From contig JAGDWI010000001.1 of NCBI GenBank assembly GCA_023269825.1, positions 430,492 through 494,491 of the forward strand: a stretch of DNA of 64,000 nucleotides. The letters run 5' to 3'. The position numbers and the translations under genes are program-made. The notes beneath the pieces are model-generated. The model was given only the letters and a program-made list of their open reading frames with translations. It did not search any database and was not told where the DNA came from. Of this stretch, positions 56,668-64,000 are shown in pieces. This stretch comes from Desulfurococcaceae archaeon (GTDB lineage Archaea > Thermoproteota > Thermoprotei_A > Sulfolobales > Desulfurococcaceae). How positions within the stretch are numbered: the first letter of the stretch is position 1; each line of letters begins with the position of its first letter.

Positions 56668-56849
56668 ATGAGCGTCGTAGAATCGAGAAATCATTAATCT
56701 ATGTAGTAACATTAAAGTATATATGGTTTTGTCTCCGAGTAATCAGTGGAGTATGGGTTCATTACGAATCGCCTCGTTAACTAATTATGTGGGAAAAATT
56801 TATAAATAATGCAACGGATACAAATATATTAATAAGAGTGTGTGCCTCA

Positions 56850-58040
56850 ATGTATAAATACATTAAGTTAATTTCAATTATAGCAGTAGCGTTAATGTTG
56901 TCTAGCTCGATTATAACAATCCAAGTAGTTTCAGCTAATAGTAATAACGGGAATACGTGGACTTTCATGGTCTATATTGTCGCCGACAATAATTTGGATC
57001 CATACGCTGAACTAGATCTACGGGAAATGGAATCCGTTGGTTCAACAAGTAGTGTTAACATCGTTGCCCTTGTGGATTTACTAAATGTAAATGGATCAGT
57101 ATTGTACTACATTGGTAAAGGAAGTAGAAGCATCATATGGGGGAACTGGAGTAGTGAATACGAATTAAACATGGGTGATCCAGAAGCATTAGCTTGGTTC
57201 GTTAACGAGACTGTGAGAAATTATCCAGCCGATCACTACGTCTTAGTGCTATGGGATCACGGTGATGGCTGGAACGGGTTTGGCTGGGATGATACAAATA
57301 ATGATCACTTGACAATAGAGGAGATTAAAGAAGCATTAAGCAATATACCCGTGAAAATTGATATCCTGGGTTTCGATGCTTGCTTAATGTCCAACTTAGA
57401 GGTCATCTATACACTTAGTTTAACTAGTAAAGTAGAAGTAGTCATTGCATCAGAGGAGTTTATTCCGAACTATGGTTGGCCCTACGATAAGATCCTTGAA
57501 AAACTCGTCGAGAACCCAGATATATCGATTCCTGACTTCGCCAAAGTAATTGTAGAAGAATACGTTAAATCATATAGCAGGGATTCACAGGGATTCGCGC
57601 CCTACGCTACTCTAAGTGCTGTTGACGCGAGTGTAGTTGGTGTAACAGTTTCACAGTTAAAGAACTTAACGAGTATTCTAATTAAAGATATCAATAAATA
57701 CAAGTCATCAGTTAAAGCTTCATCAGAGGACGCGGAGAGATTTTGGTTCGGTATGTGGCGGCAAGGACCATACATTGACTTAAAGGATTTCCTGTTAAAT
57801 CTATTAACGTTAGAGAAGAACCTTAAACCATACATAGAACCCATACTAAGTAACTGGGATAACCTAGTAATAGCTTGCAATAGTACACGTGGACCACACG
57901 CAGACACCACGTATGGGTTAACAATATATTTCCCCAGGAACAGGAATCAATTCTACTATCCTGAACCATACTATTCCAGCGTCCCAGAGTTCGCGAATGA
58001 AACAGGTTGGTATCAACTATTAAACCTTATTCTAAAATAA
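56850..58040 (+). CDS. Clostripain-related (C11) secreted cysteine peptidase
   Basis: An N-terminal signal (YIKLISIIAVALMLSSSIITI) precedes a C11 peptidase domain. The catalytic His is in LWDHGDGWNGFGW and the catalytic Cys in LGFDACLMSNLEV. TWTFMVYIVADNNLDPYAELDL is the family start. Length about 396. It cleaves after basic residues outside the cell. ATG 56850 is preferred because a TTTATAAAT box (56799-56807) predicts transcription start near 56829. Signal and domain fit this start better than ATG 56787. Confidence 0.9.
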   Translation: MYKYIKLISIIAVALMLSSSIITIQVVSANSNNGNTWTFMVYIVADNNLDPYAELDLREMESVGSTSSVNIVALVDLLNVNGSVLYYIGKGSRSIIWGNWSSEYELNMGDPEALAWFVNETVRNYPADHYVLVLWDHGDGWNGFGWDDTNNDHLTIEEIKEALSNIPVKIDILGFDACLMSNLEVIYTLSLTSKVEVVIASEEFIPNYGWPYDKILEKLVENPDISIPDFAKVIVEEYVKSYSRDSQGFAPYATLSAVDASVVGVTVSQLKNLTSILIKDINKYKSSVKASSEDAERFWFGMWRQGPYIDLKDFLLNLLTLEKNLKPYIEPILSNWDNLVIACNSTRGPHADTTYGLTIYFPRNRNQFYYPEPYYSSVPEFANETGWYQLLNLILK

Positions 58041-59858: not shown

Positions 59859-60028
59859 TTATTAATATCAAACCATTAAACCCGTGAAGCATTAATGAGG
59901 ACTCGTTCGAGATGCTATAAAATTGGAACTATTGTTTAAGCTCACTTGAACTTACATTCATTAACATTAAGGTGCAAATAAAAACCTTGATGTTGTAATG
60001 TTATAGTAATGCTTAAACGGTGTCCAAA

Positions 60029-61018
60029 GTGTTCATTAGAACAAGCCATGTGGGGAGTTTTCCTCTATCTTTTACCTTTGAGAACGTGCAGCGTGTTATG
60101 AGAGATATGTGGATGATAGGTTTAGATGCACCAACTTACCCGCAGTTGAGGAGTTTCATTGAAATATACTTAGACCCACTTGTTGATCAAGGTGCCCTAT
60201 ATAAGGTGAAAGATGTCTTCGTTGCATCAAAGGAGCTACATGAGTTCTTGGAATCTAAATCATTCAGAGTACTCGAAGCAGAGATCGCGGTTAAAGCTGT
60301 TAAATCCTGGAAACTTGGATTCAAGTGGCTTAGAGCACCGGTCACAGGCCCCTTTACTCTGGCTTCAAGGATTTACCTCCGGGAGGATTTATCAGGGGGA
60401 GTTTCATCAACAGCTTTATCTAGAAAAGAACTCGTCAAAGGCTTCTTCGCGGATTACGTTGGGAAAGCAGTTGAATACATGTCTAATCTAGGATATAACA
60501 TCGTGTTTCTCGATGAGCCATCTTTAACATTCATTATTGGCGGAAGAGGCTTATTATTCAACTATAGGGAAGAAGACATTGTTGATGCATTGGAGTATGC
60601 AGTGAGGAGTGCTAAGGGAGAAGTAGGCATACATGTATGTGGGCGTCTCCACCATAGATTACTCGAAGTAATTATGGAGGTACCAAGAATAAAGTACATT
60701 AGTGTTGAATTACATGATACGCCTCAAAACCTAGAGGTTATAGATAAATCCCTACTGGAAAAACACGATAAAATACTATCACCTGGAGTAGTGAGCGCTA
60801 AGAATCCGAGCGTAGAAGACTCCGAGAAAGTGCATAGTCTACTTAAAGCAGTATATGAGAGAACGAGTGGGAGAATAGACCTTGTCTCCGGTGACTGCGG
60901 TTTCAGGGGGTTAAAGGGATCAATTGGAGACGAGGAACGCGAGTACTCAATTGCTTTAAGTAAACTTGAAACCATAGTGAGAACCGTTAGAAAATTCACT
61001 TGGAGTAGAGGTAGCTGA
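60029..61018 (+). CDS. Core-MetE-like methyltransferase (cobalamin-independent methionine synthase fold)
   Basis: About 329 residues, matching only the catalytic C-terminal barrel of MetE. The zinc ligands are H202 and C204 (IHVCGRL), probably the glutamate in SVELHD (E227) and C290 (GDCGF). FIRTSHVGSFPL and DEPSLTF are family segments. The N-terminal folate-binding domain of full MetE is absent. Such core-MetE proteins take methyl groups from a methylcobamide protein instead of folate and transfer them to homocysteine. GTG 60029 follows GGTG (60019-60022) by 6 nt. It starts the corrinoid operon. Confidence 0.8.
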   Translation: MFIRTSHVGSFPLSFTFENVQRVMRDMWMIGLDAPTYPQLRSFIEIYLDPLVDQGALYKVKDVFVASKELHEFLESKSFRVLEAEIAVKAVKSWKLGFKWLRAPVTGPFTLASRIYLREDLSGGVSSTALSRKELVKGFFADYVGKAVEYMSNLGYNIVFLDEPSLTFIIGGRGLLFNYREEDIVDALEYAVRSAKGEVGIHVCGRLHHRLLEVIMEVPRIKYISVELHDTPQNLEVIDKSLLEKHDKILSPGVVSAKNPSVEDSEKVHSLLKAVYERTSGRIDLVSGDCGFRGLKGSIGDEEREYSIALSKLETIVRTVRKFTWSRGS

Positions 61019-61019
61019 C

Positions 61020-62867
61020 TTGCCAATAGTTGAGATAAACCCGGGGAACCTGAGGGTTAGCGTTGAAAAAGGATCAACGATCCTGCAAGCTGTTCAAAAA
61101 GCGGGAGTACCCTTATTGAGTATTTGCGGAGGATTAGGAGCATGCGGTAAATGCCGCGTAGTTGTTGCAAGTGGTTTAGAAAACGTTAGTTCCTTAACTA
61201 AAGCTGAGTTAAAGCTACTGAGCCCCCAGGACATTGAGAAAAGAGTGCGTTTAGCTTGCCAAGCTAGAATTACTGGTGACTATGTATCCATCCATATACC
61301 AGAGGAGTCACTAATAGTATTCCGTGGGAGAGCCATAGCCGCTGTTATCCTAAGAGATGATGTTTACCCACTGAGCCCTACTGTTAGAAAAATCCACGTC
61401 AATTTGCCTAAGCCGACTCTTGAGGATAATAGGCCGGATTACGAGAGGCTTCACGACGCTTTAGTTGAAGTAGGATACATTGATGAGAAAGAGGATCTAG
61501 TGGTTCCTCTGGGGGTTCTTCAAGAACTACCATCAATACTGAGATCAAGTGACTGGGATTTAACTGTTGTTTTATATGGAAGAGAGTTGATATCAATTGA
61601 GCCAGGTGACACTACAAACCTACTCTACGGAGTCGCCGTTGATATCGGCTCATCTAAAATCATCGTTCAATTAGTCGACTTAAACACTGGTGAAACCATT
61701 GCAGAGGAATCCGTTGAGAACCCTCAGTTAACTTTCGGTGCAGACATAGTTTCCAGAGTCATGTATGCTGAGAAATCACGCAGTAATCTCATTAAGCTAC
61801 AGCAACTCGTTGTCTCAACAGTTAATAGTATCATTGAACGCCTCGCTGAGAAAAGTGGTGTTAACCACGAGTACATCTACGAGGTAGTTATTGTTGGGAA
61901 CACTGTAATGCACCACTTGTTTTTAGGCATTCAACCAGGCTACATTGCTCGCTCACCATATGTTCCAGCTATTTCAAGGTCTCTGAGATATAAAGCAAGC
62001 GAACTAGGTTTAACTGTACAAAAGCAAGGGTACATTTACTCTCTACCAGTAATCCGGGGTTTTGTTGGAGCCGACGCTGTAGCTAATATTCTCGCAACTC
62101 AAATGCATAAAAGAAGAGACTTAGTTCTCGTCATCGACATAGGCACTAATACAGAGGTACTCTTAGGTAACTCGGAGGTCATACTAGCGGCTTCCGCACC
62201 ATCAGGGCCAGCGTTTGAGGGCGCTCACATTACACACGGAATGAGAGCAGTAACTGGAGCTATTGGATCAGTTAAAGTAAATGATTCAACTGTGGAATAT
62301 GAAACCATAGGTGGAGTTAAACCACGTGGAATATGTGGAACAGGTTTGATTGACACTGTCGCCGAATTATACAGGAACAAGGTCATAGATAATCTAGGTA
62401 AATTCACCAATGTTAAACACCCGAGACTACGCAGAGAACAAGGTAAACAAAGATTCATTATAGTTCCAGCTGAGGAAAGCACTAATGGCGTTGAAATATA
62501 TGTAACACCAAGAGACATCGAGTCAGTTCTACTAGCTAAAGCCGCTGTTAAAGCAGCTTGGACTATTCTATCGAGGAAACTAAGAGTGAATCCCTCGGAG
62601 ATAAACCGCGTATATGTAGCTGGCTCATTTGGTGCTCAATTAAATGTCGATAACGCGATTCAAATAGGTCTACTGCCACCCGTGGGCAGAGAGAAAGTTA
62701 CCTTCATAGGTGAAAGCGCTATCGTTGGAGCTAAAATAGCGTTGAAATCAATTGAAGCTAGAAGAGAGATAGAGGAAGCTGTAGGAACAATAGTTAAATA
62801 CGTGGAATTATCCGTTGACCCCGAGTTCCGCGAAGTTTATTTCGAGTCCATGAAAATACATGGTTAA
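61020..62867 (+). CDS. Reductive activator of corrinoid proteins (RACo-type, DUF4445)
   Basis: A 615-residue protein. Residues 1-90 form a [2Fe-2S] ferredoxin domain (C36, C42, C45, C80). A linker domain follows. The C-terminal ASKHA ATPase has AVDIGSSKIIVQL, VVIVGNTVMHHLFLG, LVIDIGTNTEVLLG and VYVAGSFGAQL. This is the RACo architecture. RACo uses ATP and a ferredoxin-type cluster to reduce Co(II) to Co(I) in a corrinoid protein that has been inactivated. The TTG start lies 1 bp after the stop of the methyltransferase gene, so the two are coupled. Confidence 0.93.
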   Translation: MPIVEINPGNLRVSVEKGSTILQAVQKAGVPLLSICGGLGACGKCRVVVASGLENVSSLTKAELKLLSPQDIEKRVRLACQARITGDYVSIHIPEESLIVFRGRAIAAVILRDDVYPLSPTVRKIHVNLPKPTLEDNRPDYERLHDALVEVGYIDEKEDLVVPLGVLQELPSILRSSDWDLTVVLYGRELISIEPGDTTNLLYGVAVDIGSSKIIVQLVDLNTGETIAEESVENPQLTFGADIVSRVMYAEKSRSNLIKLQQLVVSTVNSIIERLAEKSGVNHEYIYEVVIVGNTVMHHLFLGIQPGYIARSPYVPAISRSLRYKASELGLTVQKQGYIYSLPVIRGFVGADAVANILATQMHKRRDLVLVIDIGTNTEVLLGNSEVILAASAPSGPAFEGAHITHGMRAVTGAIGSVKVNDSTVEYETIGGVKPRGICGTGLIDTVAELYRNKVIDNLGKFTNVKHPRLRREQGKQRFIIVPAEESTNGVEIYVTPRDIESVLLAKAAVKAAWTILSRKLRVNPSEINRVYVAGSFGAQLNVDNAIQIGLLPPVGREKVTFIGESAIVGAKIALKSIEARREIEEAVGTIVKYVELSVDPEFREVYFESMKIHG

Positions 62868-62925
62868 TTTTTAATTAAAGGATTTATTAATGAAGCCCGT
62901 TAAATATACACTGAGGGTGAATTAT

Positions 62926-63564
62926 TTGAAGGACCTCGTGAATTCGATCGTCGAACTCGATGAGCAGAAATCCTTTGAGCTCGCTAAGAGGATTCTCGAG
63001 GAGACACGTGATCCTAAAGTAGTTTTTGAAGCAGTGAGACAAGCAGCTGAGATAATTGGAGAAAAATACGAGAAAGGGGAATTCTTCGTAGCAGATCTCA
63101 TAATGGCTGGCGAGATAATGAAAACTATCTCAGGTCTTGCAAGGCAGAAGCTTAAAGAACTCGGAGAAGCAAGAAAGATCATTGGGAAACTATTAATAGG
63201 TACCGTTGAAGGAGACGTACACGATATTGGTAAAAACATCGTTGTCTCAATGGCGGAAGCAGTTGGATTCGAAGTAATAGACCTCGGCGTAGATGTACCA
63301 CCGAGTAAATTCGTTGAAGCAGTGAAGGAACATAACCCGGATATATTGGGTTTATCTGGATTACTAACCACTGCTATAGACTCCATGAAGAAAACAGTTG
63401 ATGAGTTGAAGAAAGCAGGATTAAGGAGTAAAGTCAAAGTAATTATTGGTGGAGGCAGAGTAGACCAATACGCCTGCGAGTACGTTGGAGCTGATGCATG
63501 GTCAAATGACGCAGCGGAAGGCGTAAAAATAATGTTGAAGTGGATGGAGGAGAAGGCGAAGTAA
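62926..63564 (+). CDS. Corrinoid-binding methyl carrier protein (MtbC/MtmC-like)
   Basis: About 213 residues. An N-terminal helical cap precedes the B12-binding Rossmann domain. The histidine that ligates cobalt is H99 in EGDVHDIGKNIV (DxHxxG motif). GLSGLLTTAIDSM and GGGRV complete the fold. It accepts a methyl group and hands it on. The TTG at 62926 follows GAGGGTGA. An ATG at 62890 would add 12 residues. It lies 58 bp after the RACo gene and 13 bp before the UROD-like gene. Confidence 0.92.
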   Translation: MKDLVNSIVELDEQKSFELAKRILEETRDPKVVFEAVRQAAEIIGEKYEKGEFFVADLIMAGEIMKTISGLARQKLKELGEARKIIGKLLIGTVEGDVHDIGKNIVVSMAEAVGFEVIDLGVDVPPSKFVEAVKEHNPDILGLSGLLTTAIDSMKKTVDELKKAGLRSKVKVIIGGGRVDQYACEYVGADAWSNDAAEGVKIMLKWMEEKAK

Positions 63565-63577
63565 GATCGTGGTGGAT

Positions 63578-64000
63578 ATGAGCTCCACTTCATTCGATCA
63601 CCTATCTAAGTGGATTGAGAGACATGAGAGAGAACCTGAACTCGTCGCCAAAGAGAAACTAGATAGAATTATAAGGATAACTGAGCTAAAAACCCCTGAC
63701 AGAGTACCGCTCTTAGCACCCAGCGGGGACTTCATGTTAAATCAAACTGGTTTAACGTGGTATGATTTATCATATGAATTAACTGATAAAGTTAAGAAAG
63801 CTGTATCAAAGTTCGCTCTAGAATACCCGGGCGATTTCGCAATATTCTTTGTGCCATACCTACTGGAGGGCTTTATACTAGCAGCAGCCTTCTCGGATTT
63901 CCCGGATTTCTCTAACTCTATAAGGTTTATATCGGGCCTACTTCACGATGTACTGAGAGATAAGTGGAGTAGGTGGCCGGGTAGAGAGCTAAGAGTAGAC
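63578..64000 (+). CDS. Uroporphyrinogen-decarboxylase-family corrinoid methyltransferase (partial)
   Basis: The gene starts at ATG 63578 behind GGTGGAT and runs off the window after 141 codons. The opening KTPDRVPLLAPSGDFMLNQ and the following TWYDLSYELTDKVKKA match the start of UROD/MtaA-type methyltransferases, which move a methyl group between a donor and a corrinoid protein. The catalytic part is outside the window. Its place directly after the corrinoid protein gene predicts that it charges that carrier. Confidence 0.75.
   Translation, partial: MSSTSFDHLSKWIERHEREPELVAKEKLDRIIRITELKTPDRVPLLAPSGDFMLNQTGLTWYDLSYELTDKVKKAVSKFALEYPGDFAIFFVPYLLEGFILAAAFSDFPDFSNSIRFISGLLHDVLRDKWSRWPGRELRVD

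Follow-up and report, generated by a model that had tools for sequence, protein, structure and literature searches.

The 64,000-nucleotide stretch analysed here (the window; positions 430,492 to 494,491 of contig JAGDWI010000001.1, from a heat-loving Desulfurococcaceae archaeon) ends in four tandem plus-strand genes, separated by intergenic gaps of 1, 22 and 4 bp (Table 1). These encode a candidate core methionine synthase (MetE-core), a RACo-type corrinoid reductive activase, a methyl-carrying corrinoid protein (CP) and a UROD-superfamily methyltransferase I (MTI). An initial annotation had given the four adjoining genes these names, and all are present with Pfam domains that agree with them. 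We consider it likely that the operon is a corrinoid-dependent methionine synthase in which the methyl-donor module has been switched. In a relative (genome G035, locus L076), the same four genes stand in identical order and encode proteins 63–84% identical to those of the window; because the gene order is repeated, the operon is not a chance arrangement.

Composition of the operon and the MetE-core fold

The activase has Fer2 plus RACo linker, middle and C-terminal domains (C-terminal 1e-80), carries its 2Fe-2S motif (CX5CX2C) at residue 36, and has 3zyy as its nearest PDB relative (E=4e-111). CP has B12-binding and B12-binding_2 domains, with its DxHxxG-type motif at residue 109. The full-length UROD protein matched URO-D (7.6e-17), and its nearest PDB relative is the chloromethane methyltransferase CdmB (9rui, E=1.5e-58). 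The 3' part of its gene lies beyond the window and ends at L002:10861 (~64861 in window coordinates). The MetE-core open reading frame (ORF) can begin at a GTG at 60020, earlier than in the initial annotation, whose start at 60029 stands as a possible alternative. Upstream of the operon lies a clostripain-family (C11) peptidase gene.

Table 1. Coordinates of the operon and of other features referred to in the text
Feature	Coordinates	Strand	Remarks
MetE-core (core methionine synthase)	60020-61018	+	332 aa, MetE catalytic barrel only
RACo-type ATP-dependent corrinoid reductive activase	61020-62867	+	615 aa, N-terminal 2Fe-2S CGGLGACGKC
Methyl-carrying corrinoid protein (CP)	62890-63564	+	224 aa, DVHDIG
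UROD-superfamily MTI methyltransferase	63569-64000 (window end)	+	N-terminal 144 of 430 aa inside window
GH38 alpha-mannosidase-family gene	L002:10919-13528 (window ~64919-67528)		directly 3' of UROD, gap 57 bp
GH38 gene in relative	L076:9568-12153		directly 3' of UROD, gap 66 bp
Second UROD copy, window genome	L054:9267-10568	-	59% identical
Peripla_BP_4-type ABC transporter	L054:10667-15360	+	divergent from second UROD copy
MtrH, window genome	G000:C2:322279		~170 kb from operon
Ftr, Fwd-like, Mch, MtrH cluster	L134:1-10628 (G000:C2:312500-323127)		edge ORF resembles Mtd
~240-aa MTHFR-fold family	L094:5019-5726, L043:8425-9129, L104:3993-4697 and others		beside many core-MetE genes
Mto-like locus, G017	L051:10369-16555		CP-UROD-UROD-RACo, opposite-strand MtrH
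C11 peptidase	56787-58040

MetE-core had been described as lacking the folate domain, in agreement with its length, with an above-cut-off match to Meth_synt_2 (1.7e-7) and only a sub-cut-off match to Meth_synt_1, and with its AlphaFold model, a single barrel (mean pLDDT 94.2). The initial annotation had proposed structure prediction as a check; for the core protein alone, it gave this high-confidence barrel, the best PDB fold match of which was Thermotoga maritima MetE (1xdj, E=6.4e-14), with the B12-independent synthase 3rpd also among the top matches. The single sequence found no match in the PDB by phmmer, whereas a profile of 15 homologues did align. In this profile, H205, C207, E230 and C293 corresponded to His618, Cys620, Glu642 and Cys704, the crystallographic zinc ligands of T. 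maritima MetE (PMC539065). All four residues were invariant across 32 homologues from Thermoproteota and Bathyarchaeota, and H205 and E230 end their strands in the model, matching the published description of MetE (PMC539065). The zinc site, on which the initial annotation had made its assignment depend, is thus intact by alignment. Proposed homocysteine contacts are D165, by profile alignment, and S13 and Q42, which are invariant but lie beyond the aligned region, their assignment being by motif. In Bathyarchaeota, three of the core homologues (L115, L116, L117) are followed by conserved ORFs of ~1110 and ~1270 aa.

All 32 homologues matched three NCBIfam methionine synthase models, although the window protein scored far under the cut-offs (78.6/387, 53/258 and, for PRK04326, 47.5/406 bits, score/cut-off). 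On these sequence scores, MetE-core looks like a distinct family outside the assigned methionine synthase families, an assessment made with the NCBIfam models alone, which are taken here to represent the MesA-D families.

Methylation of a thiol other than homocysteine (e.g. sulfide or a coenzyme thiol), which would make the operon one for methyl disposal or thiol methylation, seems unlikely. The fold matches of the core model also include a Methanosarcina methyltransferase (4ay7), and 8 of the 32 members weakly match a methylcobalamin:coenzyme M methyltransferase model, but the HxC/E/C zinc site and the DEP motif resemble those of MetE, the methionine synthase profiles are matched by 32/32 members, and no other methionine synthase was found in the window genome. 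A role for the core enzyme in homocysteine methylation is also indicated by the gene content of that genome, since MetE-core was the only MetE found, no MetH/BHMT-type enzyme was found, and AdoHcyase, a source of homocysteine, is present.

Distribution and donor modules among relatives

The gene content of the window genome (G000) was examined one protein family at a time, and the distribution of the core gene and CP was compared across 40 genomes of its taxonomic family; the members of this sample are related by descent, several are incomplete, and no probability is attached to co-occurrence. The core gene was present in 27 of the 40 genomes and a B12-binding_2 CP in exactly those 27, both being absent from the other 13. 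Presence and absence were matched within genera g1, g2 and g4. The corrinoid dependence assumed in the initial annotation is supported, on comparative grounds, by this 27/27 co-occurrence.

The strict co-occurrence also argues against the core protein being the catalytic subunit of a split MetE that uses methyl-pterin directly, with the corrinoid genes as mere neighbours. For Thermoprotei, Price et al. (PMC7857596) report split MetE and no further type of methionine synthase. However, MetE-core is far under the NCBIfam cut-offs, PRK04326 included, and no second MetE-like gene was found in the window genome by PF01717, a search that did not directly address a divergent N-terminal partner (PF08267 was not run genome-wide). 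We therefore regard a split MetE as highly improbable.

The homologue-neighbourhood analysis that the initial annotation had suggested revealed three types of donor module around orthologous core genes. The commonest neighbours were an MtrH-like protein, CP, a shorter RACo and a ~240-aa MTHFR-like protein, and the best interpretation of this usual neighbourhood is a methionine synthase of several parts that is fed by pterin. The ~240-aa family was not detected by PF02219, yet it has an MTHFR-like sequence pattern and, in its predicted structure, the MTHFR fold. In four loci, of Zestosphaera tikiterensis and three relatives, MttB and CP adjoin the core gene. The third type, a Mto/Cdm-type set of RACo, CP and UROD followed by a GH38 gene, was seen beside the core gene in the window genome and at L076 of G035. 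The Z. tikiterensis assembly contains two near-identical core-MetE contigs (L077, L078), which probably represent two strains or a region duplicated during assembly.

In the tree of core proteins, the window protein paired with that of L076 (98%), inside a clade with MttB-linked and unlinked genes. In the CP tree, the window CP was separate from the usual CP clade and grouped with the CP of the G017 locus containing two UROD genes, RACo and MtrH, and with its G018 counterpart (100%). The window RACo belongs to the longer RACo type. Because the core gene is orthologous while its CP belongs with those of Mto-like loci, an orthologous core synthase appears, from these sequence relationships, to have been paired with another donor module. 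UROD would be a replaced or added donor module on a wider Thermoproteota core family whose usual methyl donor is apparently a methyl-pterin via MtrH. The arrangement suggests a plug-in design of one synthase with interchangeable methyl suppliers (MtrH, MttB-family, UROD).

Several points weigh against a donor-switched methionine synthase. The sequence similarity of MetE-core to any characterised core synthase is low, and the position of the C293 ligand is occupied by Asp in one divergent homologue (G036). The co-occurrence of core gene and CP was counted without phylogenetic correction. Of the 27 genomes with the core gene, just 4 have a full-length UROD of the window family; the core enzyme therefore does not generally require UROD. 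In G017 and G018 the core gene is not adjacent to the UROD set, and in G017, the genome of the Mto-like locus L051, it lies elsewhere. The operon may serve methyl catabolism, the core gene being merely co-expressed.

Candidate methyl routes in the window genome

The genome of the window contains a single core synthase and a single CP, no other B12-binding_2 protein having been found in it, together with one RACo, two URODs and one MtrH, which lies outside the operon in a cluster with Ftr, Fwd-like and Mch genes that represent a methanopterin one-carbon branch. An MTHFR-like protein was detected as a weak match (28% identity); standard MTHFR was not found by PF02219, a model that the divergent MTHFR-fold family escapes. 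The assembly is 96.6% complete, so that absences carry some risk. CoFeSP was rejected as a methyl donor in this genome, where PF03599 had no match; the model was matched in G017, G018, G020 and G031.

From the observed gene content, conserved gene order, zinc ligands, predicted fold, co-occurrence and CP phylogeny, we infer the donor and each of the following reaction steps. RACo, as expected for its family, would keep the CP cobalt at Co(I) with ATP and electrons. UROD, being of the CdmB/MtoB type, would demethylate an O-methyl compound or a methyl halide and load the methyl group onto Co(I)-CP. The core MetE barrel, with the zinc site placed by alignment and model, would activate homocysteine on zinc and accept the methyl group from CH3-CP to give methionine. 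MtrH, encoded elsewhere in the genome, may exchange methyl groups between the window CP and tetrahydromethanopterin, and in relatives the orthologous core enzymes would be fed by MtrH (pterin) or are encoded beside MttB-family donor modules. Since no other carrier was found that could serve UROD, MtrH and the core enzyme, CP probably acts as a hub that connects methyl catabolism with the synthesis of methionine. Because MtrH and Fwd-like/Ftr/Mch genes are also present, the methyl route is probably branched. The initial annotation had drawn a path from donor via UROD and CP to homocysteine; its core protein, zinc site, CP dependence, activator and UROD-type enzyme are supported, but its single linear, UROD-fed route is modified to a branched one, MtrH apparently being the usual supplier in relatives.

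It is quite possible, if not what we expect, that the main methyl supply of the core enzyme runs from methyl-tetrahydromethanopterin through MtrH and CP, and that UROD serves only an Mto-like catabolism into one-carbon oxidation, the operon being shared through CP and RACo. The MtrH-linked arrangement is the commonest in relatives, and the window genome has MtrH, the MTHFR-like protein, Ftr/Fwd-like/Mch and just one CP. However, the operons of G000 and G035 contain UROD and not MtrH, and the window CP falls in a UROD-associated clade. Feeding by MtrH is also compatible with a donor-switched, corrinoid-dependent methionine synthase.

The His-Cys-Cys zinc motif, the criterion for thiol methyltransferases (PMC10418091), was not found in the operon UROD on sequence inspection (FEGDHTPH region), and an SCMT/Mlp-type thiol methyltransferase was ruled out on this basis. 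Since the motif is absent, an O-methyl compound (methyl ether) or a methyl halide is, judged from sequence, the likelier substrate than a methyl thiol. GH38 genes lie directly 3' of UROD in both the window genome, where the gene has the same orientation as the operon, and L076, and a SBP_bac_1-type transporter is also encoded downstream of the first UROD copy. The second copy stands beside the divergent ABC transporter and near a Gfo/Idh/MocA oxidoreductase gene. These carbohydrate genes beside both UROD copies are a weak hint of O-methyl sugars. It is a doubtful but specific possibility that UROD is an O-demethylase of methylated sugars, where GH38 and the sugar transporter would release and import the O-methyl sugar and its methyl group would pass via CP to methionine. 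If true, corrinoid methyltransferases would gain a new substrate class, and methyl groups would pass directly from glycan to methionine; a PubMed Central search for corrinoid sugar O-demethylation returned nothing relevant.

Relation to described systems

Core methionine synthases have been described as MesA, MesB and MesC (PMC7857596) and as the core-MetE of Dehalococcoides (PMC7005905). MetE-core resembles MesA/B/C in having the MetE catalytic barrel alone, a conserved zinc site and a corrinoid protein as the proposed methyl donor. It differs in falling under all curated methionine-synthase cut-offs and in the physical linkage of its gene to those for a CP, an activator and a donor enzyme of its own. 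The proposed donor of MesB and MesC is CoFeSP (AcsC/AcsD), which had no match in the window genome.

The donor half of the operon is not a wholly new pathway, because UROD, CP and RACo match parts of Mto/Cdm systems. As in the Mto O-demethylase of Methermicoccus and Archaeoglobus (PMC8630106, PMC8359953), a UROD-type MTI, CP and 2Fe-2S activator share one operon and the genome also encodes an MtrH homologue; judged by domains and gene content, the window operon differs in that it includes a core methionine synthase but lacks an MtoA/MtrH gene. The CdmBCA chloromethane system of Acetobacterium dehalogenans (PMC13222342) includes the closest solved UROD relative, but its CdmA passes the methyl group to folate, whereas the window operon has no methyltransferase II (CdmA or MtoA/MtrH) and its acceptor would be the core methionine synthase. 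MtgBCDE of Ruegeria pomeroyi (PMC12478193) similarly has a corrinoid protein common to methyl-donor demethylation and methionine synthesis, with a BHMT-type homocysteine enzyme and an MttB-family donor enzyme in place of MetE-core and UROD. Type 1 mlp gene clusters (PMC10418091) also combine a UROD-superfamily methyltransferase, CP and a Ram/RACo activator, but at least two Mlps are needed there, nearly all with His-Cys-Cys, whereas the window has one UROD lacking the motif plus MetE-core.

Corrinoid-fed core synthases, Mto/Cdm demethylases and a CP shared by demethylation and methionine synthesis are thus already described. PubMed Central full-text searches, whose coverage leaves out most subscription papers, found no Desulfurococcales/Sulfolobales system of the window type, and the literature searched contained no description of the Thermoproteota core family, of its MtrH/CP/RACo partners, or of donor replacement by a UROD set. 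Within the literature searched, the initial annotation's proposal of an undescribed pathway would apply to the combination of core and donor, and not wholly to the donor half.

Which molecule donates the methyl group to core methionine synthases in vivo has been left open (PMC7005905, PMC7857596). The window operon links a core synthase physically to a probable corrinoid donor, an activator and a methyl source. Together with relatives that have three donor modules on one synthase, this makes the donor question testable with a few heat-stable proteins. It also offers a candidate for the methionine synthase of archaea that yielded no other MetE or MetH in the present analysis.

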